A stretch of DNA of 64,000 bases from Candidatus Nitrosopelagicus brevis (GTDB lineage Archaea > Thermoproteota > Nitrososphaeria > Nitrososphaerales > Nitrosopumilaceae). The stretch covers positions 997,107 through 1,061,106 of the forward strand of contig NZ_CP007026.1 in NCBI RefSeq assembly GCF_000812185.1, read 5' to 3'. The notes beneath the pieces are model-generated. The model searched no databases. It saw only the letters and a program-made list of their open reading frames with translations, and was not told where the DNA came from. The number at the start of each line of letters is the position of its first letter. Position 1 is the stretch's first letter. A program made the position numbers and the translations under genes. Below, in pieces: positions 40,018 through 62,706 of the stretch.

Positions 40018-43000
40018 TCAATTTTTTGGAGTAACTTTTGATTTTTGTTTTAAAATAACTAAAACAGAAACGATCACAATAGCAATTACCGCAATAATAA
40101 TTGCCAATAGATAATTTTGATCACTTCCTACCATTTCAGGTGAAATAGTGGAAATTGAAGTTTTTGGAGGATCCACAACAGAATGATCAATTTCAAAGAT
40201 TATTTTTGATAATACACTATTTTTAGCCATATCTTGAGCGGATACCTCGATGAAATATTCTCCTTCATCAAGATCACTGACGTCAAATGAATATGATTTT
40301 TGATCAACTATACGTTCACCAGTAGGTAAAAGAAATGAGAGATAATTTGATTTTGGAAGATTCTGATCAGAAATTGATACCTGGATATCCAAACGTTTTG
40401 AGACTACAGTATTATTTTGTGATTGTAATTCAAGATTTGGTAATTCTGAATCCAAAGTGAAGTCAAATGTTTCTGATGTCGCTAAACCAAATTTATCGAT
40501 TGCATTAATTGTAAGAGAATGTTTACCATCATCTAAATTATTAGAATTAAAACCAGTAGTATTTACTTGTATTAGATTTCCATCTAATGTATAAGTTATA
40601 CTAGCAAGATTATCTTCAATAATTTCTGGAATAATTATATGATCAGATTTTACAAAATCATCTAATTCAAGAATTATTTGTGGAGGAATATTATCTGAAG
40701 TTAACGTGGAAAATTTTGCAACAAGTGTAACAGGTTCTGTAATGTCTTTTCCTTCAAATAGAGTTGAATGTATTAGTAATGAATGTGTACCAGTTTGATT
40801 AATTGGGGCAAAGATCAAAGTTGAAGTGTTATCTTTGTTTTTTACAGGGAAGAATCCTCCACCTTGACTAAATGGAGAACTTCCAAGCCAATCTAGAGAT
40901 GCCCAATTCATGAAATGACCAAATACACCAGTTGGCATGTTTGTAGAAATTATTTTACCTTGAGGATCTAGTACAAATGCAGAGAAATTTGTATTTTCAT
41001 TTTTCCATGAAAGTTCTATAGATGCATTGTTAATTGTATTATCTTGTACGTCAAGATAATACTGTCTCCAATCACCAGCCATGTAACGATTTGTCATATC
41101 AAAAGCACCCTTTACATATTCATTACCAAAATTAACATCATTATTTTGTCCAATCAAGGTAAACGGAATATCCTTCTCAACTTTTTCTACGATAACGTAC
41201 GAAACTGGTACATTTACTGAATGATGTTCACCTTCAAACTTTATGAAGCCATCATAGATGCCGGTTGTTTGATCTTTTTGAGTTTCAATTTTTACGCTAA
41301 CATCCATAGATTGTTTTGGTGGAATTGAAATTATTTCTTTATCTAAAATAATATCGGCCCAAGAATCTTTTTTGAAATAACTTGCAGATAATGAATAATC
41401 AAATGATGTTGCGTTTTCTTTTATTGAGCCGCCCCAGAAAGAGTATCTTTCAGGAACAGGATATACTCCAACTATGGGTTCATTTTCAAAATATTCTGTT
41501 GGTTTTGAAACACGTAATTCCTGCATAGTGCCCCAAGAACCACCTCTGTTTACTAGTGTTAATTCATCGCTAGCTATTTCAGAATCATCATTTTTATCTT
41601 TCCAGTCATACAAATACAGGGATGATATTTTCAGATCATCTGCATAAATTGGATTTGTCTGGTTCATGAAGTTATCAAAAGAGAAATTAGCATTTAGTAC
41701 TAACAATGAAGAATCTTCAGGTATAATTTTAGGAAAATCTGTTTGCAAATTTTCAGAGTTAGTGAGGTTAGTTAAAGGAATATAATTTGGACGATAAACT
41801 TTTGATTTATTGTGATAAGAGTCTTGTAAATGGGGTTCGGTTGTTCCATCATAAATGAATTTTTCAATTAATTTTAGATTTTCAGGGAGTATTTTGATAG
41901 TCAAAGTACTATTTGTTGGATTTTCGATTTTGAATGAAGCAGATGTAGTAGCACCAGGATTTAATCTTCCACCAAACCAGCTTGTTTGAGGTGTATTTTC
42001 TAATGAGATTTCAGGCGATGACATGCCAATCGAAGTGTAGTTTAGATTTTTCAATGGTAATTCAAGAATTTGGTTAAGATTTTTTGAAGAATCAGTAGTA
42101 TGAACCTTAAAAACACCACCTTCGCCATTGATTAAACGAATTGCATCAAGCGAATCAACCATTCCTGAACCTTGTGTAAATACATCATTATGCATGTCAT
42201 TAGCAGTAGACATTAGAATATTTTTTACATCAGCAGGTGAAAATGATTTTGAATTATCTTTTAATTCCTGCATTACCAATGCGGCAGTTCCAGATACAAT
42301 AGGTGCAGACATACTGGTTCCTCCAAACATACCAAATGGATCTTGATCATAATCTTGTGATGGTTTTGTAACAGATGCGGGAGTAAAGCTATAAGCACCA
42401 ATACTCATTAAATCAGGTTTTGGGTCACCAATCAATGTTGGACCTCGACTTGAAAAATCAACTACATGATCAGAATATTTTGTAGAATTTCCAAATCGCG
42501 GTTCATCTTTGAAAGGTCCATAACCAACAAATACATTATTTGTTGTAGCACCAACGCTAATTCCAGTAGGAGATGCATTAGGTAATCCAATTGTACCATA
42601 ACCATGACCGGAATTTCCTGCACTAGACACCATCAACACACCAGGATAGTCTTCAGAAAATGAGTTAGGTAAGCTAAGAGTAGTCATTACTAAAGACAGT
42701 AAATCAAATCCAGGTGCATATTCAAAATTTGGAAATGTTGACACACCCCAACTGTTAGATATTATGTCAGCACGTGTATTTCCAGAAAAATTCCATTCTA
42801 TATCATCATTATCAAATCCTGCAGACCAAAGCCATGCGTATAAAATATCTCCAAACCATAGTGCCTTTACAGGGATTATTTTTGCATCAGGTGCAACCCC
42901 TCTAATGTTGAATTTTTTTGTATCATTATAGATATCATATTCTACAAGGCCTTTTGAGATTATTGTGCCTGCACTTCCAGTTCCATGACCTTGAACATCA

Positions 43001-44268
43001 GTCATCACACCAAAAAATTCACCATTTCGATTTATTGGCGGAAGTAATGTTCCATTTATTGCACCAAAGGTATCATCAATTTCAGATTCATTTTCAATAA
43101 CACCATAGATGTCTAAAACTTGAGCACCAAGTGTTCCTACACTATAATCAAATTCACCATCATTATCATAATCATAAATTAAAAATTCATTTCCATCACC
43201 TATTACATGATGAACATCATCAGTGAAATCAAAATCAAATTCTATTTTTTTATCTGTAGAGTTTTTTGTAAAGTCTTGCCAAGAAGTTGACATGTCAGGA
43301 ATAATTGTATCATAGTATCCAGATTCTTTCGAATCAACAACTAAAACAGGTACAACTTGTGGTTGACTAGGAGAACCCTGATACATTACACCTAAATGAT
43401 AAATTCCACTTTTGGATTCAATGTAATCATGTTTATCAGTTCCAATTCGCATATCATCATTTAATGTTCCATTTAGAAGTGGAGAAGAACCAAACATAGG
43501 AAACATGGAATTATACACCAACAAACTAGTTCCATCTCCATTTTGTTCTATATTCAAAAAGACACCACCTCCTCTAGGTTTCACATAAACATCAGAAGTC
43601 GTGTTATAGAGAGAAGATTTTGTAAAATTTTTGATTGTTCCATACTGATCAATATTTGCTGCAAAAGTAGCATTTGTCAATATCAGACCTTGACCATCAG
43701 GATCTAGCATAATAGGAAAATTTTCACTATCACGTGCTAGTGCATGTTGCATGTCTGGATTGGAAAAATCAACACCAGTATCAATTATAGCAATCGTGAT
43801 ATCATTACCAGTAACATTGTAAAGATTATGTACACGTTCAGAATTTGCAATATTTCCAATTGTAGATATTTGACTAACATTATTTTTTGAGATATATTTT
43901 GAATGAAAATCTAATTGGAAATCTTCAATTATATGAAATCCTTTTGATTGAAAAATAGACAAAGTACTTTCAGGAACTGTTACTATTGAAAAAAACCCAT
44001 TTGATGCAGATATAGAATATGGCGTCTGTACAAAATTACCAATTTCAGATATAGAGCCTTTTCCAAAGATTAGATAACGTTTTACTTGTTGTTCATTAGA
44101 GGGTTCATTGAATTGAATGATTCCTGAGTTTGATTCTTTAAAATTGTAATTTTTATTTTCAAGATTTTGATTAATCATATCTGCATCAAAATATGAAAAT
44201 GATTCAGAGATTAATGGGAGTGTTATGATTAACAGAACTAAAAACAATACTAATTTCATCATGATCAA
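40018..44268 (-). CDS. Giant membrane-anchored subtilisin-like (S8) protease
   Basis: The 1416-residue protein has an N-terminal signal peptide (LVLFLVLLIITLPLISES). The catalytic Asp is in IAIIDTGVDFSNPDMQ near residue 160, the His in VQGHGTGSAGT near residue 430, the oxyanion Asn in VSSAGNSGHGYG near residue 555 and the Ser in FGGTSMSAPIVSG near residue 655. A long insertion of about 250 residues separates Asp and His. Several beta-sandwich-like domains fill the second half, and a C-terminal membrane helix with a basic tail (LLAIIIAVIAIVIVSVLVI) anchors it. It should process or degrade surface proteins, and its neighbours are S-layer related. Confidence 0.93.
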   Translation of the reverse strand: MIMMKLVLFLVLLIITLPLISESFSYFDADMINQNLENKNYNFKESNSGIIQFNEPSNEQQVKRYLIFGKGSISEIGNFVQTPYSISASNGFFSIVTVPESTLSIFQSKGFHIIEDFQLDFHSKYISKNNVSQISTIGNIANSERVHNLYNVTGNDITIAIIDTGVDFSNPDMQHALARDSENFPIMLDPDGQGLILTNATFAANIDQYGTIKNFTKSSLYNTTSDVYVKPRGGGVFLNIEQNGDGTSLLVYNSMFPMFGSSPLLNGTLNDDMRIGTDKHDYIESKSGIYHLGVMYQGSPSQPQVVPVLVVDSKESGYYDTIIPDMSTSWQDFTKNSTDKKIEFDFDFTDDVHHVIGDGNEFLIYDYDNDGEFDYSVGTLGAQVLDIYGVIENESEIDDTFGAINGTLLPPINRNGEFFGVMTDVQGHGTGSAGTIISKGLVEYDIYNDTKKFNIRGVAPDAKIIPVKALWFGDILYAWLWSAGFDNDDIEWNFSGNTRADIISNSWGVSTFPNFEYAPGFDLLSLVMTTLSLPNSFSEDYPGVLMVSSAGNSGHGYGTIGLPNASPTGISVGATTNNVFVGYGPFKDEPRFGNSTKYSDHVVDFSSRGPTLIGDPKPDLMSIGAYSFTPASVTKPSQDYDQDPFGMFGGTSMSAPIVSGTAALVMQELKDNSKSFSPADVKNILMSTANDMHNDVFTQGSGMVDSLDAIRLINGEGGVFKVHTTDSSKNLNQILELPLKNLNYTSIGMSSPEISLENTPQTSWFGGRLNPGATTSASFKIENPTNSTLTIKILPENLKLIEKFIYDGTTEPHLQDSYHNKSKVYRPNYIPLTNLTNSENLQTDFPKIIPEDSSLLVLNANFSFDNFMNQTNPIYADDLKISSLYLYDWKDKNDDSEIASDELTLVNRGGSWGTMQELRVSKPTEYFENEPIVGVYPVPERYSFWGGSIKENATSFDYSLSASYFKKDSWADIILDKEIISIPPKQSMDVSVKIETQKDQTTGIYDGFIKFEGEHHSVNVPVSYVIVEKVEKDIPFTLIGQNNDVNFGNEYVKGAFDMTNRYMAGDWRQYYLDVQDNTINNASIELSWKNENTNFSAFVLDPQGKIISTNMPTGVFGHFMNWASLDWLGSSPFSQGGGFFPVKNKDNTSTLIFAPINQTGTHSLLIHSTLFEGKDITEPVTLVAKFSTLTSDNIPPQIILELDDFVKSDHIIIPEIIEDNLASITYTLDGNLIQVNTTGFNSNNLDDGKHSLTINAIDKFGLATSETFDFTLDSELPNLELQSQNNTVVSKRLDIQVSISDQNLPKSNYLSFLLPTGERIVDQKSYSFDVSDLDEGEYFIEVSAQDMAKNSVLSKIIFEIDHSVVDPPKTSISTISPEMVGSDQNYLLAIIIAVIAIVIVSVLVILKQKSKVTPKN

Positions 44269-44295: not shown

Positions 44296-45291
44296 TTATC
44301 TTCGTCTAGCAATAATTACAATTTGTAAAGCAAGTATAATTGCGATTGATGCAACAATCGGAAATAGCAATGCATTAAGTTGAGATGAACCTTCTTCAAT
44401 ATTACCAACAGAGTCAGATATCAACACCACACTATCATCTAGATTTGAACTTGCATCAGATAATGATGAACCAAAAGTAGAAGTTTCTTCTTTTAGATTT
44501 GCTAATTCAGTTTTTGTTTCATCTAAGATTTGATTTAATTCTAAAATTTGAGCAGAAATACCACTAATATCCTGAGTTAAAACATTTGTAGCACCAGAAC
44601 CATGCGAAATATTTCCTTCATCAAAAGTCACCATATGAAATACATAGATTCCTTCTAGTGCAGGTAAATAATCTACATAATACAATCCTTGATGTAATAT
44701 TTTTAGATCATCTTCTAAATTTTCTACTTGGCCGTTAGGAAGATGTACGTGAGAAGTACCGAGTATTTGATTTGGATCATCACCGATTAATAGACCATCA
44801 CTAGATGTTTGTACAAATACACGAAAGTCTCTGCTAACAGCGGCAGTTTCAGGGGCAAAAACAATGGTACTAACATTTCTTTCAATTGGAACTTGAACAA
44901 ATTCAGATGTTGATGAAAATTTTACTTCAATCATTTTTGATATTCCACCTTGCTGGTTAGAGATAACTTCTAGAATGTATGTTCCATATGGAAGGTTTGT
45001 TGTTGGTTTATCCCATTCCATTAAAAAATGATGAAATGATCCATCTTCACTAGTCATTAATTGTTCAAATTCTGCAATTGTATCATCAGGAGTAAATAAT
45101 CGAATTATAATAGGTTCTTTTGGCATAGCCTGGCCATGTACAAATATTGGTTCACCAGGAGCAAATACCAATTGATTGGTATAAACATCCAGAGTGCCTT
45201 CTAATCTTTCTTGGAATACCTCAGCATTTGCAAGTGTCATAGGAGTAAATGAAATCAAGAGAATTGAGAAGAATATTACGTTGTATTTCAA
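44296..45291 (-). CDS. Membrane-anchored surface protein with coiled coil
   Basis: The 331-residue protein has a signal peptide (FFSILLISFTPMTLANA). Two beta-sandwich-like domains follow at about residues 30-130 (LVFAPGEPIFVHGQA, YGTYILEVIS) and 130-235. Residues 240-305 look like a coiled coil (LNQILDETKTELANLKEE), and a C-terminal membrane helix ends in ARRR. This is the shape of a surface stalk protein anchored to the membrane and facing the S-layer. It lies between the subtilase and the S-layer fragment. No named family recognised. Confidence 0.8.
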   Translation of the reverse strand: MKYNVIFFSILLISFTPMTLANAEVFQERLEGTLDVYTNQLVFAPGEPIFVHGQAMPKEPIIIRLFTPDDTIAEFEQLMTSEDGSFHHFLMEWDKPTTNLPYGTYILEVISNQQGGISKMIEVKFSSTSEFVQVPIERNVSTIVFAPETAAVSRDFRVFVQTSSDGLLIGDDPNQILGTSHVHLPNGQVENLEDDLKILHQGLYYVDYLPALEGIYVFHMVTFDEGNISHGSGATNVLTQDISGISAQILELNQILDETKTELANLKEETSTFGSSLSDASSNLDDSVVLISDSVGNIEEGSSQLNALLFPIVASIAIILALQIVIIARRR

Positions 45292-45376
45292 TAATTAAAT
45301 TTCTAAAATCTAATAGATATTACTTGTGAAAATTTTGTTTGAGAATTTTGTCTATAACTTTCGTTAAGAGGTGTTC

Positions 45377-45397
45377 AAAAAAAAGAAAAAAAGGAAA
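45377..45397 (-). terminator. Poly-T terminator after S-layer fragment, left copy
   Basis: Read on the minus strand, two T runs (seven and eight) separated by a C begin about 25 bases after the S-layer stop codon. T-rich tracts like this terminate archaeal transcription. It is the mirror image of the right-hand tract. Confidence 0.6.
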
Positions 45398-45415
45398 GTT
45401 TGATGTCTAATTACC

Positions 45416-46643
45416 TTATACGACTCGGATGCTTACTGATACTGTATCAGATAGAGCAGTTGGATTATCTACGCTCTCCCATACAAAGACAGTTGCTTCG
45501 TATGAACCAGAGGCAGTTGGAATCCATGACAATGCTGGGCTAAATGATTGTCCAGCAGCCAGTTGACCAGTAATCCATGCTAGTGAGACAGTTACTCCAT
45601 TGCCATCCTGAACCTGTACTAAGTATGCGAATGATTGATCTCTATCCTGACCGTTTACCAAGTCTGCTTCAATCTGTACTTGTTGATCTACTGATACCTC
45701 ACTTAGTGAGTTACCGAATGAATCAACTACTCTTGCGTTTGCTGCTGGAGCACGCTCAAGAGGAGGTACAATTGTGCCGACAATGGCTGTGCCAGTGATA
45801 TCGAGGTCATCGCTTCTAGTATATGGATCTGGAAGTGTATTATCCTCATATTCTGCGGTGATTGTGTCACCTTCTGCGACTCTGAGTCTGTGACCAGATG
45901 ATTCGTCGTCTGCTGTAAATGATACAGTTCCTTCGAATATTCCAGTTGCCTCATTTGTCTCAGTGATCATTAAGGAAATACCGCCTGCGTCAGAATCTGA
46001 CCAGACGTCAATTTCAAAGTTGTCCACGTTTTCTGGATCCCAGTTCATATCTGGGTCGACTACTCTTACTACACCATTACCGCCTGCAGGATAGCTTGAT
46101 TCAAGCCATTGAACTTCACCTACGTTCCATCTGATTAATGCAGAGCCTACTACGACCTCATCCTCGTTGTACTCGTATGAGATTGTAACTCCGTCATCAT
46201 CTTCGGCTTTAATTACACCATCGGTTGGTCCTGATCCACTTGCAGATGATACACCTGTAACATCATAACCGCTTGTACCAGTTGATGGGTCACCATCAGC
46301 GTCGTGTGAGAATCCTTTGAGGATAACTTCACCACTGAAGATGCCTGTATCAGTTCCAGTCTCTGCTAACTGATAGCTAGTGAGTTTCTGTGATCTGGTT
46401 TGTACGATTAATGGGTCGTCATCAGTATCACCAATCATGTCAACGAGTCCGCTGTCAAAGTTGTGATCTGGTGCGACGATAGTTACATAGATTTTATCAG
46501 TCCATGTGTATACTTTTTGGTCCATTTCGATAGTTGCACCGAAGTTAGATGTGTAAATGCTTAATCCAATGTCTGTGTATTCATCACCAACATAATTGGC
46601 GCCAGCTGGGGCCCAATCTGTGTATTCAAGATCGATGAGTTCA
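45416..46643 (-). pseudogene. S-layer protein C-terminal fragment, left arm copy
   Basis: The frame is open from the palindrome centre to the stop at 45416, about 409 codons; the first ATG gives 369 residues. It lacks an N-terminus, signal peptide and promoter, because the frame meets a stop within three codons beyond the centre. Two Ig-like units with the recurring stretch ETGTDTGIFSGEV and ETNEATGIFEGTV are visible, and the C-terminus carries FVWESVDNPTALSDTVSV, typical of Nitrosopumilus S-layer and surface proteins. Full-length S-layer proteins of this group are much longer. Codons are C-rich, as in very highly expressed genes. It is identical to the right copy. Confidence 0.85.
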
Positions 46644-47871
46644 TGAACTCATCGATCTTGAATACACAGATTGGGCCCCAGCTGGCGCCAATTATGTTGG
46701 TGATGAATACACAGACATTGGATTAAGCATTTACACATCTAACTTCGGTGCAACTATCGAAATGGACCAAAAAGTATACACATGGACTGATAAAATCTAT
46801 GTAACTATCGTCGCACCAGATCACAACTTTGACAGCGGACTCGTTGACATGATTGGTGATACTGATGACGACCCATTAATCGTACAAACCAGATCACAGA
46901 AACTCACTAGCTATCAGTTAGCAGAGACTGGAACTGATACAGGCATCTTCAGTGGTGAAGTTATCCTCAAAGGATTCTCACACGACGCTGATGGTGACCC
47001 ATCAACTGGTACAAGCGGTTATGATGTTACAGGTGTATCATCTGCAAGTGGATCAGGACCAACCGATGGTGTAATTAAAGCCGAAGATGATGACGGAGTT
47101 ACAATCTCATACGAGTACAACGAGGATGAGGTCGTAGTAGGCTCTGCATTAATCAGATGGAACGTAGGTGAAGTTCAATGGCTTGAATCAAGCTATCCTG
47201 CAGGCGGTAATGGTGTAGTAAGAGTAGTCGACCCAGATATGAACTGGGATCCAGAAAACGTGGACAACTTTGAAATTGACGTCTGGTCAGATTCTGACGC
47301 AGGCGGTATTTCCTTAATGATCACTGAGACAAATGAGGCAACTGGAATATTCGAAGGAACTGTATCATTTACAGCAGACGACGAATCATCTGGTCACAGA
47401 CTCAGAGTCGCAGAAGGTGACACAATCACCGCAGAATATGAGGATAATACACTTCCAGATCCATATACTAGAAGCGATGACCTCGATATCACTGGCACAG
47501 CCATTGTCGGCACAATTGTACCTCCTCTTGAGCGTGCTCCAGCAGCAAACGCAAGAGTAGTTGATTCATTCGGTAACTCACTAAGTGAGGTATCAGTAGA
47601 TCAACAAGTACAGATTGAAGCAGACTTGGTAAACGGTCAGGATAGAGATCAATCATTCGCATACTTAGTACAGGTTCAGGATGGCAATGGAGTAACTGTC
47701 TCACTAGCATGGATTACTGGTCAACTGGCTGCTGGACAATCATTTAGCCCAGCATTGTCATGGATTCCAACTGCCTCTGGTTCATACGAAGCAACTGTCT
47801 TTGTATGGGAGAGCGTAGATAATCCAACTGCTCTATCTGATACAGTATCAGTAAGCATCCGAGTCGTATAA
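46644..47871 (+). pseudogene. S-layer protein C-terminal fragment, right arm copy
   Basis: This is the mirror copy of the left fragment, identical at the protein level. Translation from the centre begins ELIDLEYTDWAPAG and runs to the stop at 47871; an in-frame TGA at 46636-46638 lies just across the centre, so no complete gene exists. Acidic Ig-like repeats and the same C-terminal WESVDNPTALS segment are present. The region upstream of the first ATG (46762) is clearly coding in character, which shows that the fragment is cut from a longer protein and is not a short gene with its own start. Confidence 0.85.
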
Positions 47872-47889
47872 GGTAATTAGACATCAAAC

Positions 47890-47910
47890 TTTCCTTTTTT
47901 TCTTTTTTTT
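47890..47910 (+). terminator. Poly-T terminator after S-layer fragment, right copy
   Basis: Runs of seven and eight T separated by one C start about 20 bases after the S-layer stop, and the ROK kinase gene follows 60 bases later. A strong terminator is expected after a very highly expressed gene. Confidence 0.6.
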
Positions 47911-47969
47911 GAACACCTCTTAACGAAAGTTATAGACAAACTCAAAACATACCAAATCCCTCATTTATC

Positions 47970-48839
47970 ATGAATAGAATTGGTGTTGACTTGGGTGGAA
48001 CAAAAATTGAAGGAATACTTACTGATGAAAATTATAAAACAATTACAAGAAAACGTATTCCAACAAATCAAGATGAGGGTTACAACTCTATCTTAGAATC
48101 AATCAAAAATCTAATTCAAGAACTTGTTAAGGAATCCAACAACAAAGTTTCCATAGGAGTTTGCACTCCTGGTGCATTATCACTTAGCTCAGGTTTGATA
48201 AAAAATAGTAATACACAATGTCTAATTGGTAAAGATCTTCAAAATGACCTGAAAAATATCTTACATTACAATGTGTCTATAGAAAATGATGCCAATTGTT
48301 TTGCGTTGGCAGAAGCAAAATTAGGAGCAGGTAGGAACTCTAATCTTGTGTTTGGCATAATAATGGGAACTGGAGTTGGTGGTGGTATCATAATAGATGG
48401 GAAAATTCATCATGGACGAACAAACATTGCTGGAGAATGGGGGCATCACTGTCTTCATCCTGAAGGAAATACCTGTTATTGTGGGAACAAAGGATGTGTT
48501 GAGACATACATCAGTGGTCCTGCACTAGAAAAAAAATGGTCTGAGCTTACTAGTCAAAATCAACCTTTACCCGAAATCATCAAAAGTTCAGATAATCCAA
48601 ACTTTCCTAACTGGAAGAAATCATTTCTTGATGACTTTGGTTCATCCTTGGCAAATGTTATTGATATTTTGGATCCAGATGTGATAGTTCTTGGCGGCGG
48701 TGTATCAAATATTGATTTTCTCTATAGTGAAGGAAAAAATTCTACTCACGAAAAAGTATTCAGCGACATTGTCGATACACCTATTACAAAAAATGAGCTT
48801 GGTGATTCAGCAGGTGTATTTGGTGCTTGTATGCTATAA
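47970..48839 (+). CDS. ROK-family sugar kinase
   Basis: The 289-residue kinase starts with the phosphate-binding motif IGVDLGGTKIEGIL. The catalytic aspartate lies in SIENDANCFALAEA near residue 108, and the ROK zinc site CYCGNKGCVETY near residue 169 follows HGRTNIAGEWGHH. ROK kinases phosphorylate glucose, fructose or amino sugars. There is no N-terminal helix-turn-helix, so it is an enzyme rather than a repressor. The sugar is uncertain. It is the first gene right of the palindrome and is convergent with guaA, one base apart. Confidence 0.93.
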   Translation: MNRIGVDLGGTKIEGILTDENYKTITRKRIPTNQDEGYNSILESIKNLIQELVKESNNKVSIGVCTPGALSLSSGLIKNSNTQCLIGKDLQNDLKNILHYNVSIENDANCFALAEAKLGAGRNSNLVFGIIMGTGVGGGIIIDGKIHHGRTNIAGEWGHHCLHPEGNTCYCGNKGCVETYISGPALEKKWSELTSQNQPLPEIIKSSDNPNFPNWKKSFLDDFGSSLANVIDILDPDVIVLGGGVSNIDFLYSEGKNSTHEKVFSDIVDTPITKNELGDSAGVFGACML

Positions 48840-48840
48840 T

Positions 48841-50364
48841 TTATTGAGGTTCAATGGTAGCAGGCGGTTTGCTTGAAATTACATAAGAAACCCATGTAAC
48901 TTCATCAATTTCATTAGTAATCCTGTTACTGATTTTTTCTAAAACTCCATTTGGAAGTCTAGTCCAGTCAGCAGTCATTGCATCAATCGAATCTACAACC
49001 CTAACTGTAACAATTCTACCATACTTACGTTCATCTCCGACAACTCCAACTGCCTTATCATCTCCTACAGCTGCATATGCTTGCCATACCTTATCATAAA
49101 CTCCTGCATCCCATAGTTCCTCTTCAACAATTTTACTTGCTTTTCTGCAGATTGCTAACTTTGAAGGAGTAATCTCTCCCATAATTCGTACAGATAATCC
49201 TGGTCCCGGAAATGGGTGTCTCTTCAGTAATTTTTCTGGAACACCCAAAATTCTAGCAACATCTCTTACTTCATCTTTATACAATTCTCTTAACGGTTCT
49301 AAGATTTTGAGGTTCAACCATTCTGGTAATCCTCCTACATTGTGATGAGATTTTATTACAGCTGCAGGACCTTTTGATACGCCACTTTCAATTACATCTG
49401 GATAAAGTGTACCTTGCGCTAACCATTTGAATGGTCCTTTCTGTTTTGCAAATTCCGTAAATACTCGAATAAATTCTTCCCCAACAATTTTTCTTTTCTG
49501 TTCCGGGTCCGTTATTCCTTTTAATTTTGAAAGAAATTGCTCACTTGAATCTACTCTGTGGAAATTTAATGAAAAATTATTTTTGAACATATCTTCAATT
49601 TCTTTGGATTCATCCAATCTCAATAATCCATTATCTACAAAAACTCCTGTTTGCCTATCTCCTATTGCTTTGTGTATTAGTAATGCTGCCACTGTTGAAT
49701 CTATACCTCCACTAACTCCGCATAACACATTTCCTTCAATTTCTGAAATTTCTTTTACCGTTTTTTCCACAAAACCTTCCATTGTCCATTCTTGTTTTGC
49801 CTTACAAACATTCAAAACAAAATTTTTCAAAATATCGGTTCCGCGTTCAGTATGAACTACTTCTGGATGAAATTGTATTCCAAATACGGTTCTATCTATA
49901 TTTGCTATTGCAGCTGCATGTGAATTTTCAGTATGACCTATAACTTCAAAATTAGATGGAATTTCTTCTGCTTCGTCTCCATGACTCATCCATGCACGAA
50001 TTGACTCCCCTATTCCGTCTAGTAATCCTGAATTTTTATCCATCGAAAGAAGAGATGAACCATATTCTTTGTTTGCACGTTTTACTTTACCTCCAAATTT
50101 ATTTACAATTAATTGATGTCCATAACAAATTCCTAACAACGGTAGGTCGAAATTAAATAATTCTTCATCTGGTTTTGGTGCATCTTCATTATAGACACTT
50201 GATGGTCCACCAGAAAAAATTATTCCTTTTGGGTTCATTTTCTGTAATTCTTCAGGTGATATGTCATATGGTACTAATTCGGCATAAACTGAGAATTCTC
50301 TAATCCTTCTACAAATTAAATGACTATACTGAGAGCCAAAATCTAAAACAACTATCTTTTCCAT
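48841..50364 (-). CDS. guaA: GMP synthase (glutamine-hydrolysing), single-chain
   Basis: The 507-residue protein contains the full two-domain enzyme. The glutaminase domain has the nucleophile in GICYGHQLIVNKFGG near residue 80 and the His/Glu pair in GIQFHPEVVHTERG near residue 168. The PP-loop ATPase has GVSGGIDSTVAALL near residue 215, and the dimer domain ends with GVLEKISNRITNEIDEV. It converts XMP to GMP. Many euryarchaea split these domains over two genes; here they are fused as in bacteria. guaB, which supplies XMP, lies 2.3 kb further on. Confidence 0.98.
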   Translation of the reverse strand: MEKIVVLDFGSQYSHLICRRIREFSVYAELVPYDISPEELQKMNPKGIIFSGGPSSVYNEDAPKPDEELFNFDLPLLGICYGHQLIVNKFGGKVKRANKEYGSSLLSMDKNSGLLDGIGESIRAWMSHGDEAEEIPSNFEVIGHTENSHAAAIANIDRTVFGIQFHPEVVHTERGTDILKNFVLNVCKAKQEWTMEGFVEKTVKEISEIEGNVLCGVSGGIDSTVAALLIHKAIGDRQTGVFVDNGLLRLDESKEIEDMFKNNFSLNFHRVDSSEQFLSKLKGITDPEQKRKIVGEEFIRVFTEFAKQKGPFKWLAQGTLYPDVIESGVSKGPAAVIKSHHNVGGLPEWLNLKILEPLRELYKDEVRDVARILGVPEKLLKRHPFPGPGLSVRIMGEITPSKLAICRKASKIVEEELWDAGVYDKVWQAYAAVGDDKAVGVVGDERKYGRIVTVRVVDSIDAMTADWTRLPNGVLEKISNRITNEIDEVTWVSYVISSKPPATIEPQ

Positions 50365-50367
50365 TTT

Positions 50368-50952
50368 CTATTTCACTGAATTTTCTAACATTCTTGTGAG
50401 TGACCATGTTGCGGTATTGATTATCTCATCTAATCTTTCTTTTTGTCTGTAATTTTTAATAATTATTTCTCTGATTGCTGGTCCATTTTTGTTAATTATA
50501 CAATCAATAACTGAATTCTCATCTATCTTTCCATTTTTGACATCAGTACTATCAATTTTTTTCATCTCACCAATTATTCTTTCAATGAAAAATGATCTTA
50601 ATGGTGGTATTTCATCGGTAAGACCAATTCCTTCATTCAATATTATAGAAATTTTTTCAGGAGTTACAAATGCATTGGCAATAACTTCTCCATCCTTATT
50701 TTTTTTAATTTGAATAGATTCTAATTTTTCTTCTTTAACCTCAATTTTATCTTCTTCTGGTTCTTTTGTAATTGATTCAGTTGATCTTGGTAATGATGAG
50801 GCTTTAGTAAAACTGGAACCTTTTAAAACTACATCTAATACATCCAAATTCTTCTGCAGAAAATCTAGCTCATCTTGGTGTTTTGCCATTTTATCTATGA
50901 TTGATTCTTTTAATTCCAACATTTTTTGGATCTGCTCATCAGTATATTGCAT
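50368..50952 (-). CDS. Protein of unknown function with coiled-coil N-terminus
   Basis: The protein has about 194 residues from the ATG at 50952 (MQYTDEQIQKMLELKE); an upstream start adds SFLIV and seems less likely. Residues 1-50 form a helical coiled coil, residues 55-90 a charged disordered linker rich in Glu and Lys, and residues 95-194 a folded domain (AFVTPEKISIILNEGIGL, then FFIERIIGEMKKIDS). No named family recognised. It is three bases upstream of guaA on the same strand and so shares its transcript. Confidence 0.75.
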   Translation of the reverse strand: MQYTDEQIQKMLELKESIIDKMAKHQDELDFLQKNLDVLDVVLKGSSFTKASSLPRSTESITKEPEEDKIEVKEEKLESIQIKKNKDGEVIANAFVTPEKISIILNEGIGLTDEIPPLRSFFIERIIGEMKKIDSTDVKNGKIDENSVIDCIINKNGPAIREIIIKNYRQKERLDEIINTATWSLTRMLENSVK

Positions 50953-50988
50953 AACTATTAGAAAACTCATTCAGTATTAAAACGCATT

Positions 50989-51726
50989 CTAAAAGTTTTC
51001 AATACACTCTAGGTCAACCATTCTAATTGTTTTGTAACCTTTTATTCTGTTTGTTGAAAACAAATCTGCTTTTGATTTAGTTCCTATCCACTCTACAATC
51101 TTTTTGCCAAATTTTAATTTCTTTATCTTTATTCTACGATCAACAATTCTATGTTTCGAATATTTTCCAATTTTCTGACCAAAATCCATCCCAATTAAAA
51201 CAATTTTACTTGCATTGAAATATTCTGCTAAAAACACACATCTGTCTCCATCTGTAAATCCTCCAAAATTTTCACTTTTCCCTATTTTACTTGTTTGTGT
51301 ACTTCCTATCACATTTTTCAATTTTTTCACAATTTCTAATTTTTCATAATTATCTCCGTGTGCATGAACTATGATTGGAATTCTTGTTTTACCAATTTTT
51401 TCAATACTTTTCAAGTCACCATCAAGATCAGTCACTAAAATATCTGGTTTGATGTTTTTTTCTAATAGTGCTCTAACTGCGCCATCAGCTACAATCTTTG
51501 TAACATCTTTCGATTTTTTGATATACTTTAATGATCTAGTCAATGATGGCCCTGCACCTATAATGAATACTGTTTTACCTTGGATCATATTTTGAAATTG
51601 ATTCTTTGAATTTTTTCCTTTTAACAGTGAATTTAATTTCTTCACAGAAATCAAATCATCTTTTTCCAAATACCCAAATTCCTTTCTAATTTCCTTGAAT
51701 TGAGTTTTCCATCCACGTATTGTCAT
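50989..51726 (-). CDS. mptE: 6-hydroxymethylpterin diphosphokinase, MptE type
   Basis: The protein has about 245 residues. The core starts at TVFIIGAGPSLTRSLKYI near residue 55, followed by VADGAVRALLEKNIKPDILVTD, then the metal-binding DLDGD and later IVHAHGDNYEKL and FTDGDRCVFLAEYF. These are the landmarks of the archaeal MptE (DUF115) family, which makes 6-hydroxymethylpterin diphosphate, the substrate of dihydropteroate synthase. The divergent folP gene sits directly next to it. The ATG at 51726 (MTIRGW) is preferred over the one three codons upstream. Confidence 0.9.
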   Translation of the reverse strand: MTIRGWKTQFKEIRKEFGYLEKDDLISVKKLNSLLKGKNSKNQFQNMIQGKTVFIIGAGPSLTRSLKYIKKSKDVTKIVADGAVRALLEKNIKPDILVTDLDGDLKSIEKIGKTRIPIIVHAHGDNYEKLEIVKKLKNVIGSTQTSKIGKSENFGGFTDGDRCVFLAEYFNASKIVLIGMDFGQKIGKYSKHRIVDRRIKIKKLKFGKKIVEWIGTKSKADLFSTNRIKGYKTIRMVDLECIENF

Positions 51727-51759
51727 ATGACTCAAATAGATTACCTTATCATAAATGAT

Positions 51760-52638
51760 ATGACAAAATTAGGCAGTATTGTAGTTGGTAAAAAAAATCA
51801 AATTACTATTATGGGAATCTTAAACATTAGTCCTGAATCATTTTATAAAAAATCTATAAAATCTACAAAATCAGAAATATCAAAGTATTTGTGTGATATG
51901 GAAGAAAATGGAGCTAATATTATTGACATTGGAGGGATGTCTACCGCTCCATATCTAAAAACAATTGTATCTGAAAAAATCGAATCTGAAAGAATAACAA
52001 AAACAATCAAAATTATTCAAAATTTATCTAACATTCCAATTTCTGTTGATACTTGTAGGGCATCAGTTGCAAAAGATGCACTTGAATTGGGTATTGATGT
52101 GATTAACGATATCTCTGGTTTAAAGTATGATAAGAATATGCCAAAAATTGTAGAAAAATATAATCCATCTTTAATTTTATGTTCATACAGTAAAAAACTT
52201 GTAAAAGGAAATCCAATATCTGTAACAAAACAACTTTTGAATCAAAGCATAAAGATTGCCAAAAAAGCTCAAATATCTAAAGATAAAATTGTCGTTGATC
52301 CAGCTATTGGATTTTTTAGACGTTCTTCAGATGTTAAAAATAATCTTCCATACACAAAAATCACATCTGATTGGGCTCAAAGAGATATTGAAATTATTAA
52401 AAAATTAAAACTTCTAAAAAGTACTTTTCCTATTTTGCTTTCTATTTCCAATAAATCCTTTTTAGGTAAATTACTTGGAAAAGAAGATCCATCTGAACGA
52501 AATACTGGGACCGCAATTGCTGAAATGTTATCAATAATTAATGGTGCATCTATAATTAGAACTCATAATCCAAAAATCACCTCAGATGTTATCAAAATGA
52601 CAAAATCTTTCGCACAAAAATCCAGGAAAGGCTTATAA
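51760..52638 (+). CDS. folP: Dihydropteroate synthase
   Basis: The protein has about 293 residues from the ATG at 51760; an ATG at 51727 abutting mptE would add 11 residues. Signature segments are ITIMGILNISPESFY near the N-terminus, ANIIDIGGMSTAPY near residue 50, PISVDTCRASVAKDAL near residue 93 and DVINDISGLKYD near residue 117, and the last strand has IIRTHNPK with the catalytic Arg and His. It condenses 6-hydroxymethylpterin diphosphate with an aminobenzoate-type acceptor. With MptE next door and purU at 14.4 kb this supports a folate-type one-carbon carrier. Confidence 0.93.
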   Translation: MTKLGSIVVGKKNQITIMGILNISPESFYKKSIKSTKSEISKYLCDMEENGANIIDIGGMSTAPYLKTIVSEKIESERITKTIKIIQNLSNIPISVDTCRASVAKDALELGIDVINDISGLKYDKNMPKIVEKYNPSLILCSYSKKLVKGNPISVTKQLLNQSIKIAKKAQISKDKIVVDPAIGFFRRSSDVKNNLPYTKITSDWAQRDIEIIKKLKLLKSTFPILLSISNKSFLGKLLGKEDPSERNTGTAIAEMLSIINGASIIRTHNPKITSDVIKMTKSFAQKSRKGL

Positions 52639-52668
52639 CAGATTTTTTCTCTCTGGTAAAAGGTTCAT

Positions 52669-54105
52669 TTGGTAATAAGAGAAGGATTCACTTTTGATGA
52701 TGTTCTCCTTGTACCCAAATTTTCAGATATAACTAGTCGTTCACAAACCAATTTATCAACAAACCTTTCTCGAAATATTAAACTCAATATTCCTTTAGTT
52801 AGTGCAAACATGGATACCGTCACAGAGTCTACTATGGCAACAACAATGGCTAGACAAGGAGGAATTGGAATAATTCATAGATTTTTAACAATAGAAGAAG
52901 AAGCTGAACAAGTTCTCAAAGTCAAACGTTCTGGAAGTGTAATGATTGATAATCCGTATCAAATATCTTCTGAAAAATCTATTGAAGAAGCTATTGATTT
53001 AATGAATGAAAAAGAAGTATCTGGATTACTAGTAGTCGATCCTGATTCTAAACTTGTTGGTGTCTTAACTGAACGTGATGTACTTTTTGAATCAATCAAT
53101 TCAAAAAAATCTGTATCTGAATTAATGACTAAAGATGTAATCTCTTCAAATGAAAATACAACCTTAGATGAAGCAAAAGATATTCTAAAAAGTCATAGAA
53201 TTGAAAAACTACCTCTTGTAAATGATAAAAATCACATTGTTGGTCTTTACACTACTCAGGATATTCTAAATATCGAAAATTTTCCAAATGCATCAAAGGA
53301 TAAGAAAGGACGACCACTTGTTGGAGCTGCAGTTGGAGTAAAAGGTGACTTTTTAGATAGAACTGAAGCGTTACTTGGTGCTGGTGCAGATGCAATTGTA
53401 GTTGATATTGCACATGGTCACAGTGAAAATGCAATCAGTACAGTAAAAAATATTAAAAAAGCATTTCCTGACTGTGAACTCATTGCTGGAAATGTAGCAA
53501 CTGCTCAAGGTACTGAAGATTTGATTAAAGCTGGGGTTGATGCAGTTAAAGTTGGTGTTGGTTCTGGTTCTATCTGTATTACACGAGTTATTACCGGCTC
53601 TGGTGTGCCTCAATTAACAGCTGTAATGGATTGTGCTGAAATTGGTAAAAAATATGATATACCAATTATTTCTGACGGTGGAACAAGAACATCAGGTGAT
53701 GCAACTAAAGCATTAGCTGCTGGCGCATCATCTGTTATGTTAGGAAGTATGTTAGGCGGAACTGATGAAAGTCCTGGTTCAACAATCACAAAGAATGGAA
53801 AAAGATACAAGTTTTACAGTGGAATGGCATCTCTAGGAGCAGCACGAAGAAGAAAATCAAAGGAAGTTACGCAAGCCGATACTGAGGATGATCTAAATGA
53901 CTATGTTGCTGAAGGAGTAGAGGCGATGGTTCCATACAAAGGAACTGTTATTGATATTCTCGTTCAAATTACTGGTGGAATACGTTCTGGCTTGAGTTAT
54001 TGTGGTGGTCATGATATTAAACAAATGCAAACTAATGCTGAATTTATAAAAATGTCACGTGCTGGATTTGCAGAAAGCCAACCTCATGATGTTGACGTAC
54101 TATAG
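52669..54105 (+). CDS. guaB: IMP dehydrogenase
   Basis: The 478-residue enzyme oxidises IMP to XMP with NAD. The barrel starts at [17 protein letters not shown], two CBS domains occupy about residues 95-205, and the active-site loop [20 protein letters not shown] near residue 297 holds the catalytic Cys. The flap [15 protein letters not shown] and C-terminal [15 protein letters not shown] are present. The start is TTG, 30 bases after folP. Together with guaA it provides the whole IMP to GMP route in this region. Confidence 0.97.
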
Positions 54106-54139
54106 CTAATCTTTTATTGATTTAAAATCCAGTTTTTTC

Positions 54140-54610
54140 ATGTTGAATAAATTCACAATTATTGGAATTATAATTGGAAGTGCAATTTCTATTTTAGGCG
54201 CTTCTTCAATGGTCACTTCATTAAATTCACCAAATGAAATTCAAGAGGATACTGCAACATTTGGAATTGGCGATTTTGATAAAATTAACTTCAATGCTCC
54301 TGCAAACTCATCACAATCATTGATTATAACCGGAGATTCATTTGATGTAAAAATTACAACTCCTGATTCAAGTAATGATGTTAATGCAAGTTTTAAAAAT
54401 AAAGCGAACCTTTCTTGGACTTCGATCACTGCAGGTCAAACAATAATAACAATCCAAAATACTGGAGATTCAGAGTTTACTGAAAGTTATAAATTTGAAC
54501 TAGAACGTGATCCGTTATTCTTCACTTATTCAATTTTAGTAATTATTGCTGGAGTTGTAATAATTGGATTTAGTGCAGGATTTAGTGCCCGAAAACCAAA
54601 AGGATTCTAA
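54140..54610 (+). CDS. Membrane protein with extracytoplasmic beta domain, function unknown
   Basis: The 156-residue protein has a membrane segment at each end (FTIIGIIIGSAISILGASSM near residue 5 and FTYSILVIIAGVVIIGFSAGF near residue 128) with about 95 residues between. The middle is beta-rich and Ser/Thr/Asn-rich (SLIITGDSFDVKITTPDSSN), as expected for an outward-facing domain. No named family. It overlaps pheA by four bases, tail to tail. Confidence 0.75.
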   Translation: MLNKFTIIGIIIGSAISILGASSMVTSLNSPNEIQEDTATFGIGDFDKINFNAPANSSQSLIITGDSFDVKITTPDSSNDVNASFKNKANLSWTSITAGQTIITIQNTGDSEFTESYKFELERDPLFFTYSILVIIAGVVIIGFSAGFSARKPKGF

Positions 54611-55431
54611 TCTAATTCTGCAATTGGATATGAACCAATTATTTTAAGAAATATTGTATTTTTTCTAATATTGTCTAGTACAGATTTTATTTTAGAATTT
54701 GAAGAATGACCTAGAAAATCCACAAAGAAATTGTATTCCCAATTTGTATTCTTATTTGGTCTAGATTCAATTTTTGTTAGATTAATATCATTATCATTAA
54801 ATTCTTTCAATATTTGATATAATGCACCTGGTTCATGTTTTACTGAAAAAATAATTGAAGTCTTATCATTTTTACTTTCATTCGTCTTCTCTTTTGAAAA
54901 TATCAAAAAGCGCGTGAAATTATTTGAATTATTTGCAATTCCTTCTTTGATTATAGGAACATCATACAAATTACTAGCAAGACTACTTGCTATTGCTGCA
55001 CAATTATTTTCAAGGTCTTTAATGATTTCAACACTTCCTGCTGTGTCATATGTTGGAACAGTTTTCAAACCATGATTTTCAATAAAATCACTACATTGTC
55101 CTAATGCTTGTGGGTGTGAATACACTTTTGTTATATCGTCCAATTCACCTCTACCAATTAAACAATGTTCCACTTTAAGATACACTTCACCTATTGCATG
55201 TAGATTTGTTTTAACAATTTCATCAATGCTCTGTCCAACTGTACCTTCAATAGAATTCTCAACAGGTAAAATGGAATAACTTACATCAGATGATGTTTTA
55301 TCGTTTTGAGCAGATTTTAATGCATCTTCAAATGAACTTGTTCCAATTGTATCAATTTCTTCTCCAAAAAATTTTTTTGCTGCACTTTGACTATATGCTC
55401 CTTGTACGCCTTGATATGATACTTTCTTCAT
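54607..55431 (-). CDS. pheA: Prephenate dehydratase
   Basis: The 274-residue enzyme converts prephenate to phenylpyruvate for phenylalanine synthesis. The catalytic half has VSYQGVQGAYSQSAAKKFFG at the N-terminus, LPVENSIEGTVGQS near residue 55, HPQALGQCSDFI near residue 105 and the NNFTRFLIFSKE stretch near residue 168. An ACT domain follows with the ESRPNK motif (LTKIESRPNKNTNWEY) that binds Phe for feedback inhibition. It lacks a chorismate mutase domain. It follows the csl4 gene with a seven-base gap. Confidence 0.96.
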   Translation of the reverse strand: MKKVSYQGVQGAYSQSAAKKFFGEEIDTIGTSSFEDALKSAQNDKTSSDVSYSILPVENSIEGTVGQSIDEIVKTNLHAIGEVYLKVEHCLIGRGELDDITKVYSHPQALGQCSDFIENHGLKTVPTYDTAGSVEIIKDLENNCAAIASSLASNLYDVPIIKEGIANNSNNFTRFLIFSKEKTNESKNDKTSIIFSVKHEPGALYQILKEFNDNDINLTKIESRPNKNTNWEYNFFVDFLGHSSNSKIKSVLDNIRKNTIFLKIIGSYPIAELD

Positions 55432-55438
55432 CTTAATT

Positions 55439-55981
55439 TTAAATTAAAAATTCACTTTTACCAAACTCGGTAGATAATTTTCTATCATCAATCCATCCAC
55501 AATCCTTACACTTTACTGCATCTCTCATTTTTACAACAGTACCAAAACATTTTCTACATTTTGTGAATAATACTCCTAATTCTGGTGAATCTATAGTTGC
55601 ATGTATTGTTCCATTTATGTGACTGATTATCTTTGCTTTTACAACATCTTGTGCTAAAGCGATATTTTTTTTCCTAATATGTCTCGTAACACAAATACAT
55701 TCCAAATCTGAATTCATTTTTTTTCCATTAACAAATTTTATCATTATCGCAATCATTGATGGTAAATTTGCCTCCACAACTCCTATGATTACATCCCCTA
55801 CGTTTGGTACTGTAATCTGTTTTTGTCGATTTATTGATGCTAATCTTTCAGAAGAATCTAGATTAATTTCTCCAATTGTTGTTGCTCTAATAGAATCGTT
55901 ATCCTCAAATGTATTTTCTCCTGGCAAATATTCTTCAATTTGTGCAATTTTTTCGCCTGGAATTTTTTGATTTTCATTCAT
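55439..55981 (-). CDS. csl4: Exosome subunit Csl4
   Basis: The protein has about 180 residues from the ATG at 55981; an ATG four codons upstream is possible. It has an N-terminal domain with IPGEKIAQIEEYLPGENTFE, a central S1 RNA-binding domain (GDVIIGVVEANLPSMIAIM) and a C-terminal zinc ribbon with CRKCFGT and CKDCGWID. Csl4 caps the archaeal RNA exosome and recruits substrates, often with DnaG. The Rrp41/Rrp42 subunits are not in this window. It is divergent from the GT-C-like gene. Confidence 0.95.
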   Translation of the reverse strand: MNENQKIPGEKIAQIEEYLPGENTFEDNDSIRATTIGEINLDSSERLASINRQKQITVPNVGDVIIGVVEANLPSMIAIMIKFVNGKKMNSDLECICVTRHIRKKNIALAQDVVKAKIISHINGTIHATIDSPELGVLFTKCRKCFGTVVKMRDAVKCKDCGWIDDRKLSTEFGKSEFLI

Positions 55982-56059
55982 AGATATACTCAAGAATTTT
56001 AACTATTATTTGTTTTTAGACTCACATAATTGATTAACCAGTTATAATTTACCAGTGAT

Positions 56060-57280
56060 ATGAGTGAGCAAATATCTAGCAAATTGATATCTTATGCAGT
56101 ATTTCTAGTCACGCTCGGAGTTATTGGAGTAAGTATCCTATCTGTGATGTTTCCAGCCTTGATCATTTCAAATACATATGAATTTTCTAACGATTTAGAT
56201 CCATTTGAAAGTAATTCTTGGTTACCATCAATTATCATATCTATTTCATCTTTTTTGATTATAGGCTTTCTTTATCAAAAAAAGAAACTTCCATCTTTTT
56301 TTCAATCTGGAATACATTTTATTTTAAATTTTGAAACCTCAAAACGAGTTTCAATAATAACTGCAATTATAATTTTAGTTATCTACATTGGATTCTCTTC
56401 TGAAGAATTATTTATCGATGAGATGCGTCAGTGGCCAGATTATAAAGTATTACAACAGGCATTAGATATCTGGCCATCTACTGATCATTGGAGTATCTAC
56501 GTTTCAGAACAAAATACTAGATATGTTAGAATTATTCTTCTGGATTTTTCACAGGAATTTCTTCAAAATATAAAATTATTACCTTTTGTTGGAAGTATTC
56601 TTGTTGTAGTATTCACTGCATTAATAACTACACAAATAGCAAAAAAAAGATTTGCTGGCTTGGTGTCAATGATTATTCTATTACAAAGTATCACCTTTAC
56701 TGATTTCGATACTATTGCTGTTTATGAGAATTTTTGGGTATTATTTTATCTCATTTCATTGTATTCAATTCAAAAAAGATGGTGGTCTGCTTCACCAGTA
56801 TCTTTTGTTTTAGCTATTTTCACAAAAGCATTTATCATAACATATTTTTGGATGAATATATTTTTCATTTATCGTGCAGAAATTCCTAGAAAAACAAAAT
56901 ATTTCTTATTTTTAACTTACGGTGCAGTTATTGGAATAGTATATTGGATTTTTGAAAGTGGAAAAAGTATAATCTATGATGATATTGTTAAATTAGATGT
57001 AAATGCATTTTATGATGGATTTACTGGATGGGGAAATAATATGCAACTTGATCCTCTTGCAATTTTGTGTGTAGTTCCTTTAACAGTTGGATTATTCATA
57101 AAATCTCTGAAGGGAGTTAAACAAGCTGATTCTGTCTTAATTTTGATTATGGGCACAATTCTTGCTGCACCATTGATCTCTTTTGTTACCGATTTCTATT
57201 TCATATTGCCTTATCGATACATTCCATTTATTGTAGCAATGGCAATTGGAATTGGAGTTTTTCTTTCAAAAGAAGATTAG
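56060..57280 (+). CDS. Polytopic membrane protein, possible GT-C glycosyltransferase (copy 2)
   Basis: The 406-residue protein has about ten membrane segments and is a paralog of the 400-residue protein at 32.6-33.8 kb. Shared landmarks in the same order are the acidic loop LFIDEMRQWPDYKVLQQAL near residue 117, RYVRIILLDFSQ, AVYENFWVLFYLISLYSIQ near residue 222, an FTKAF stretch and LPYRYIPFIVAMAIGIGVF near the C-terminus. The acidic loop matches the site of GT-C motifs, so glycosyl transfer at the outer face is inferred. It converges, with a four-base overlap, on a gene for a secreted WTII-type protein, as copy 1 does. Confidence 0.75.
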   Translation: MSEQISSKLISYAVFLVTLGVIGVSILSVMFPALIISNTYEFSNDLDPFESNSWLPSIIISISSFLIIGFLYQKKKLPSFFQSGIHFILNFETSKRVSIITAIIILVIYIGFSSEELFIDEMRQWPDYKVLQQALDIWPSTDHWSIYVSEQNTRYVRIILLDFSQEFLQNIKLLPFVGSILVVVFTALITTQIAKKRFAGLVSMIILLQSITFTDFDTIAVYENFWVLFYLISLYSIQKRWWSASPVSFVLAIFTKAFIITYFWMNIFFIYRAEIPRKTKYFLFLTYGAVIGIVYWIFESGKSIIYDDIVKLDVNAFYDGFTGWGNNMQLDPLAILCVVPLTVGLFIKSLKGVKQADSVLILIMGTILAAPLISFVTDFYFILPYRYIPFIVAMAIGIGVFLSKED

Positions 57281-57792
57281 TCGCTACGAATTATTGTCCA
57301 ATAAGTTATAACAGAATCTGATGGTTTTACTATATACGAATGGTGTAAACCTCTAAAAATTTCATATCTCTCTCCAAGATTATCACGTACCCCCAAACTA
57401 GTAATAAATGCCCTATGATACCAAGCACATTCTTCATCATACCCTGGAACTTCAAAAACTTGTGTCAAACATTTCTCATAGTTATACTCGACAGTTATTT
57501 CACGCATTTCAACATTTTTTCCATTCACAATTCCTGTTTTCACAATTGGTAGCGTATCCACAAAATTATGCGTAACATCTTTTTCTAAATAACTTGTTGC
57601 AACAGTTTTTGTGACACTAATTAATTCACCATCCAAATTTCTTAGAATATTATATGCCTGAACTTTGTATTCTGAATCTTTGATTTTAATTAATTCATCC
57701 GTATTCCATGTTAACGGCTCTGCAGCAATATTTACTGAAAAAATTGAAACAAATGATAATCCAATTATTATTAGAAGTATTGTTTTTTTCAT
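57277..57792 (-). CDS. Secreted WTII-type protein of unknown function
   Basis: The 171-residue protein has a signal peptide (KTILLIIIGLSFVSIFSVNIAA) and an extracytoplasmic domain of about 145 residues. It contains ILRNLDGELISVTKTVATSYL and ends YWTIIRSD, matching the C-terminal domain of the secreted TPR protein at 31.8 kb (RDKDENLIAVTES and VQWTIIKN). Two cysteines (KCLTQVF and ECAWYHR) could form a disulfide. It has no TPR repeats. It follows dph2 after three bases on the same strand and faces the GT-C-like gene. Confidence 0.78.
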   Translation of the reverse strand: MKKTILLIIIGLSFVSIFSVNIAAEPLTWNTDELIKIKDSEYKVQAYNILRNLDGELISVTKTVATSYLEKDVTHNFVDTLPIVKTGIVNGKNVEMREITVEYNYEKCLTQVFEVPGYDEECAWYHRAFITSLGVRDNLGERYEIFRGLHHSYIVKPSDSVITYWTIIRSD

Positions 57793-57795
57793 ATA

Positions 57796-58800
57796 TTATA
57801 ACCAGTGTGGTATCTCTAAATAATTATCTAATTTCTCATTATTGAGCATTTTTAATAATGCATTTGCTTGTGGTGTTGATAGCATAGGTTTGTCAAATTC
57901 ATTATCAGTTGAAATTCTTGGGCACGCAACTTGAATAAATGCATCAATTCCTGTGAAATTTTTCAGTCTATCACTAGTAATGTCTGTTAATGCTAACAAT
58001 TGAACTTCTTTTCCACGCTCTTCAAGCTCTTTTTTGAATTTTAATGCTGTAACTTTTGCAAATTGACCTTCTTTTAGACCTACAATTACTCCAAAAACTT
58101 TTGCTTCCATTGCTTTGTAAATCTTCAGCGTAGCCTTTTTTTCTAATTTTTCTGCAAAGTTCGTCACATCTCTTACTTCATTGAAATAAGGATCTAAAAT
58201 GTAGGTTTTCACTTTAGTTGATATTGCAACTCCTGCAGCATGAAAATTACTTTGTCCTAAAAATAAATTTGCATCTACTTCTTCTTTTGTTTCCATTGCA
58301 GGATAAAATTCACATCCAAAAACTTGCCCATCGTTTAATTGACCTTTTCCTTTACCGATTTTTACAAAAACACCTCCGTCTTCTAGTTGTTTTTTAACTG
58401 ATTCAACTTGATGAAGATGTTGACTATCTGTAATTAATGAAATTGTTTTTCCATTCAAAATTTCTAATGCTTTTGGTATTACCGCATCAAAAGGTACGTT
58501 ATCAAAAGCATCAATCATGATGACATTATCTTGTTCTCCTGGAAATGTTTCTAATTTATTTGTGTGACCAATATTGAATAAAATTTCTGCACCTAAAACT
58601 TTGGCACCATTTGAATTAAGATCACATGTACCCCATGTAGTATCTGCTAAAACAAATGCAGGGATATCAAATTTTTTTGTAATATTTACTGCTGTTTCTT
58701 GAACTTGTGGTAACATTCCATCTGGTGCATTTAAAGCAACTGTAACTGGCTTCCTTTGAGAAATTATCTCAAAAATCCTCTTTTCATCAATTACTATCAT
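57796..58800 (-). CDS. dph2: Diphthamide synthesis enzyme Dph2
   Basis: The 334-residue radical enzyme transfers the 3-amino-3-carboxypropyl group of SAM to a histidine of elongation factor 2. The three cluster cysteines are visible in DTTWGTCDLNSNGAK near residue 57, GQVFGCEFYPAM near residue 160 and IQVACPRISTDNEF near residue 289. FNIGHTNKLE follows the first. Length and spacing fit archaeal Dph2 homodimers. The secreted WTII-type gene follows after three bases, although no functional tie is evident. It is divergent from tiaS. Confidence 0.96.
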   Translation of the reverse strand: MIVIDEKRIFEIISQRKPVTVALNAPDGMLPQVQETAVNITKKFDIPAFVLADTTWGTCDLNSNGAKVLGAEILFNIGHTNKLETFPGEQDNVIMIDAFDNVPFDAVIPKALEILNGKTISLITDSQHLHQVESVKKQLEDGGVFVKIGKGKGQLNDGQVFGCEFYPAMETKEEVDANLFLGQSNFHAAGVAISTKVKTYILDPYFNEVRDVTNFAEKLEKKATLKIYKAMEAKVFGVIVGLKEGQFAKVTALKFKKELEERGKEVQLLALTDITSDRLKNFTGIDAFIQVACPRISTDNEFDKPMLSTPQANALLKMLNNEKLDNYLEIPHWL

Positions 58801-58880
58801 TTGTTCTGAAAAGTGTCATTTTGAATTTAAACCAAACTCTTTGGCAAATCACTAAAATTCCTATATTTTGTAGTAAATGT

Positions 58881-60200: not shown

Positions 60201-60208
60201 AATCATAA

Positions 60209-60283
60209 TAGCGGGGAGTAGATTTGAACTACTGATTTTCGGGTTATGAGCCCGACGGGATGACCTGACTTCCCCACCCCGCT
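60209..60283 (-). tRNA. Initiator tRNA-Met (anticodon CAT)
   Basis: A 75-base cloverleaf. The acceptor stem AGCGGGG pairs with CCCCGCT, with the A1-U72 pair typical of archaeal initiators. The anticodon stem ends in three G-C pairs (GGGCTCATAACCC), the second initiator hallmark. The T arm is AGTAGTTCAAATCTACT and the discriminator is A. It is therefore assigned to initiation and not to elongator Met or Ile2. Confidence 0.9.
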
Positions 60284-60360
60284 GAACAAAAATCCCTTAT
60301 GAGGTATATACGCGTTTCAAATTCGGAAATGAATAAAAGGATTCTAATTAATTTTTTATT

Positions 60361-61473: not shown

Positions 61474-61474
61474 A

Positions 61475-62635: not shown

Positions 62636-62706
62636 CAAAATACCTAAAGAAAATTTTCTACTTGTTTTAACCATCCATTATATTACGTATAGTTGTTCGT
62701 ATAGAA

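Follow-up and report, generated by a model that had tools for sequence, protein, structure and literature searches.

A perfect 2.6-kb palindrome in the Candidatus Nitrosopelagicus brevis genome, very probably an assembly error between two S-layer genes

Misassembly at a gene-length repeat is marked by breaks at the repeat, a reversed unique block, mirror-image joining of the ends and loss of the repeat middle, and the S-layer locus described here is alike in each of these respects. It differs in that its joins are blunt, carry no Ns and fall at the identical base of both copies, so that the outcome resembles two perfect palindromes. A second point of comparison is the main S-layer gene of the Nitrosopumilaceae, which adjoins slaB: the protein encoded in the palindrome arms corresponds to its C-terminal 408 residues, and in the present genome the gene is split, with 27.6 kb between its N- and C-terminal pieces. 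Invertible S-layer systems, such as sap of Campylobacter fetus, contain several S-layer genes with shared ends, as is the case here. In contrast to sap, the copies are directly oriented in relatives, none of which has an inverted version. The parts of the literature consulted hold nothing that bears directly on misassembly into palindromes or on duplicated S-layer genes in these archaea.

The window, that is, the whole 64,000-nucleotide stretch that was analysed, spans 997107-1061106 in a genome assembled as a single contig (1,232,128 bases). The exact 2.6-kb palindrome reported in the initial annotation was recovered in full, with two arms of 1297 bases, 100% complementary (0 mismatches) and 0 spacer, meeting at 46643/46644. 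It is the sole inverted repeat of at least 60 bases in the 64-kb window, and base pairs just outside the arms match only at chance level. The features are listed below in window numbering, where gene A denotes the S-layer gene that adjoins slaB in relatives, and gene B the one found in some of them between the thermosome and ROK genes.

40018-44268, minus strand: S8 family protease gene (Pfam PF00082), next in the conserved gene A array
44296-45291, minus strand: gene for a SlaB-like protein (weak NCBIfam SlaB match; conserved neighbour), the natural downstream neighbour of gene A
45347-46643, minus strand: left arm, holding the last 408 codons of S-layer gene A, its stop and 69 bases of 3' flank; complementary to the right arm at every base, and followed by slaB and the S8 protease gene, as for gene A in relatives
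46643-46644, no strand: probable false junction 1, a blunt join, head to head, whose surrounding 28 bases are absent from the 30 other genomes of the genus
46644-47940, plus strand: right arm, the identical 1297 bases in the position of the S-layer gene B C-terminus, followed by ROK and guaA, as for gene B in G005, G006, G015 and G023
46644-64000, no strand: part inside the window of the 27,551-base block whose orientation is opposite to that in relatives, and which runs on to 74194 (probable false junction 2); colinear with G003 contig 9 once turned, with the same order in G027
47970-48839, plus strand: ROK family kinase gene (Pfam PF00480), the natural downstream neighbour of gene B

Either arm encodes the final 408 residues of an S-layer protein and, past them, includes the stop and a 3' flank of 69 bases; the listed ATG open reading frames of the arms comprise the last 369 of these residues. 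The arm protein is 95-97% identical to the products of genes in close relatives, where slaB adjoins as well. Both arms thus carry, as initially annotated, an S-layer C-terminal fragment without an N-terminus (408 residues of a protein of about 1790), and the frame does end within three codons past the centre: it is open for 410 codons, and TGA is the third codon beyond 46643/46644. Homology between the arms stops at the natural 3' edge of the S-layer gene duplication, 69 bases past the stop codon; a relative shows this edge at the identical base. The 28 bases spanning the palindrome centre were not found in the 30 other genomes of the genus.

Where is the rest of the gene? In relatives of the same genus, the arm C-terminus closes genes of 1749-1791 codons (open reading frames of about 1750-1800 residues). 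The first 1381 residues of a relative's full-length S-layer gene were used as query for a protein search of the own genome. Only the first 303 residues matched, and they did so twice, at 1070382-1071314 (plus strand) and 1071287-1072219 (minus strand). These N-terminal pieces, of 306 codons each, lie on the same single contig 27.6 kb to the right of the first palindrome, and not between its arms. They join tail to tail to form a second spacerless palindrome, centred at 1071300/1071301, outside the window. Its inner 286 bases are perfect, and the coding pieces are alike at 884 of 919 bases. Two further features therefore extend beyond the window.

Genome 1070382-1072219 (73276-75113 in window numbering), both strands: second palindrome, of S-layer N-termini (L051), at probable false junction 2
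Genome 1043750-1045046 and 1071301-1072219: pieces of the duplicated S-layer gene B of the thermosome-ROK site, a site also covered by L031, L032, L029 and L059; homology between copies begins roughly 70-80 bases upstream of the start codon and ends 69 bases downstream of the stop

The roughly 3.2 kb between these ends is absent from the own genome at both protein and DNA level: the protein search gave no match beyond residue 303 of the 1381-residue query, and a DNA search with the middle of a relative's gene returned only chance-level matches (best E 0.15). The own genome likewise contains no complete S-layer open reading frame of the arm-type family, only N- and C-terminal pieces. These pieces are out of frame even when paired in the correct order, which indicates that sequence is missing and not merely moved. 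An in-place shortening of the gene, with N fused to C, was considered and rejected, since the frames of the two pieces do not fit and each full-length relative that was examined has the middle.

The flanks of the four pieces can be read against the two S-layer sites of relatives. At the gene A site, thrC and its neighbour lie upstream, and slaB, the S8 protease gene and a cytochrome b-like gene lie downstream; at the gene B site, the thermosome gene lies upstream, and ROK and guaA downstream. Gene A is complete in G003 and G027, and gene B in G005 and G015. The two genes run in the same direction, about 25 kb apart. In the own genome, the four gene pieces bear exactly these four flanks, mispaired: slaB-C joins C-ROK and thrC-N joins N-thermosome. 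Gene order around both S-layer sites is thereby broken at both ends of a 27,551-base block.

The 27,551 bases between the two palindrome centres (genome 1043750-1071300) were turned in silico and aligned to G003 contig 9, in which the order is B remnant, ROK, block, gene A, slaB, protease. Without turning the block, the alignment switches direction at both palindromes. After turning it, the stretch 18514-83394 (window numbering, extended to the right) forms one continuous alignment in a single direction. With the block turned, every N-terminal piece meets the C-terminal piece that belongs to it, in agreement with 30 of 30 uninterrupted loci of named relatives. The cut in gene A maps to G003 positions 53618 and 56861 within one gene, placing the missing sequence at 3242 bases. 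Among 80 S-layer loci of named genomes, uninterrupted genes follow the A order in 28 cases and the B order in 2. The arrangement of the window was found at none of the 80, nor was any spacerless palindrome with arms longer than 10 bases. At 34 of the 80 the contig ends inside the S-layer gene, and the gene thus often interrupts assemblies; G020 has three contigs that end in it.

Taken from these comparisons, the palindrome is very probably an assembly error, in which a block was reversed between two S-layer genes and both middles were lost. The real genome would most likely contain two full-length S-layer genes with the same orientation and about 25 kb between them, in the order thermosome, S-layer B, ROK, guaA and onward to the his operon, thrC, S-layer A, slaB and S8 protease. 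The near-identical ends of the two copies would have halted contigs at identical positions in both genes. The chromosome would then have been closed by gapless joining of contig ends, with the 27.6-kb contig between the genes reversed, which would make the palindrome in the window out of two C-termini and the second palindrome out of two N-termini, and would drop the roughly 3.2-kb middle of both genes. It may be that one collapsed repeat contig was used twice, which would account for the perfect identity of the arms. The order of these assembly steps is what we infer; computed results are the mispairing and the fact that reversal repairs it. The artefact reading of the initial annotation is thus upheld by the second palindrome, the mispaired flanks and the colinearity after reversal. 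Its suggestion that two identical divergent S-layer genes had been collapsed was right as to two S-layer genes and wrong as to their divergence, since in relatives they point the same way. Two divergent genes at the window site were rejected, as the N-termini lie elsewhere and the flanks sort into two direct copies. There are counterpoints to an error: the assembly consists of one contig with a completeness rating of 99.5%, and gene B is not intact everywhere, G003 having only a 184-base tail of it.

Could the inversion have taken place in the cell? A true rearrangement would have inverted the 27.6-kb block with breakpoints inside both S-layer genes, lost both middles and created two real spacerless palindromes. 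This is what the single-contig assembly states, and the window alone holds no contradiction to it; it is nonetheless very improbable. Four breakpoints would be required, each pair of them at one and the same base of two paralogues. Such cuts at the same two bases of both genes are unexpected for DNA breakage but expected of contigs that end at shared repeat edges. Recombination between directly repeated genes leads to deletion, not inversion, and long spacerless palindromes are unstable. Furthermore, none of the 30 other genomes of the genus has the junction, and no complete S-layer gene of the arm-type family would be left. If the rearrangement were true, the cultured strain would have to live without such a gene, and a perfect palindrome of 2.6 kb would persist stably in it. 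The 'remarkable inverted duplication' of the cell-surface gene, entertained in the initial annotation, finds no support, as order is restored only by reversing the block.

Less probable again is a fold-back chimera at a single S-layer locus, arising from amplification or a missed-adapter read and seeded at the short palindrome TTCATGAA, as had been proposed. Fold-back chimeras yield perfect spacerless palindromes, and the one in the window is itself perfect. However, its arms carry two different natural flanks, slaB and ROK, which belong to two separate S-layer loci in relatives. The parent sequence in relatives has no short inverted seed either: at the arm start they read GACAGAGG followed directly by TGAACTC, or a close variant, and TTCATGAA is created by the join itself. 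The arms of the second palindrome, in turn, differ slightly, which points to two genes of origin. Finally, four S-layer genes (two of them divergent here, two convergent at the second site, and each pair collapsed by the assembler) would also give both palindromes, and tail-to-tail S-layer pairs do occur in the relative G031, but this is the most remote of the explanations, as the four outer flanks match one for one those of two genes in relatives, two upstream and two downstream, and divergent copies are found in no relative.

The 2.6-kb palindrome, then, is almost certainly not in the cell, judging from these sequence comparisons. In such cells the S-layer protein usually ranks with the most abundant proteins, and the organism is an abundant ocean ammonia oxidiser. 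In an apparently finished reference genome, the error would strike the S-layer gene from the protein list and reverse 27.6 kb, and proteomic searches and gene-order studies relying on the genome would be misled. It would also conceal an ordinary real event, a lineage-specific S-layer duplication with conserved ends and a variable middle. The thermosome-ROK site is empty in G027 and holds only the gene B tail in G003. Without an S-layer gene at this site in G027, gene B is a lineage-specific extra copy, hidden by the probable error. In G003, 8 of 184 bases distinguish the A tail from the B tail. In the full-length S-layer genes of L030-L033, conservation between close species covers the signal region and the last roughly 400 residues. 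The middle is highly variable, with identity down to 44% per 100 alignment columns between G003 and G005.

Two minor observations concern S-layer-type genes and the thermosome site. The 2.05-Mb single-contig relative G031 has two tail-to-tail S-layer-type gene pairs, at C1:136939-140159 and 2027708-2031546, with C-terminal ends about 0.8 and 1.4 kb apart. Directly downstream of the thermosome gene lies a conserved element of about 108 bases, at 75395-75501 in window numbering (genome about 1072501-1072607), which is also present in relatives (L059 13077-13184, L032, L055 and L031). The element gave no match in Rfam. Its long complementary ends, AAGCGGTTC...GAACCGCTT, and the predicted fold of the G027 copy (-28 kcal/mol, z -3.7) go with a candidate strong terminator or small RNA.
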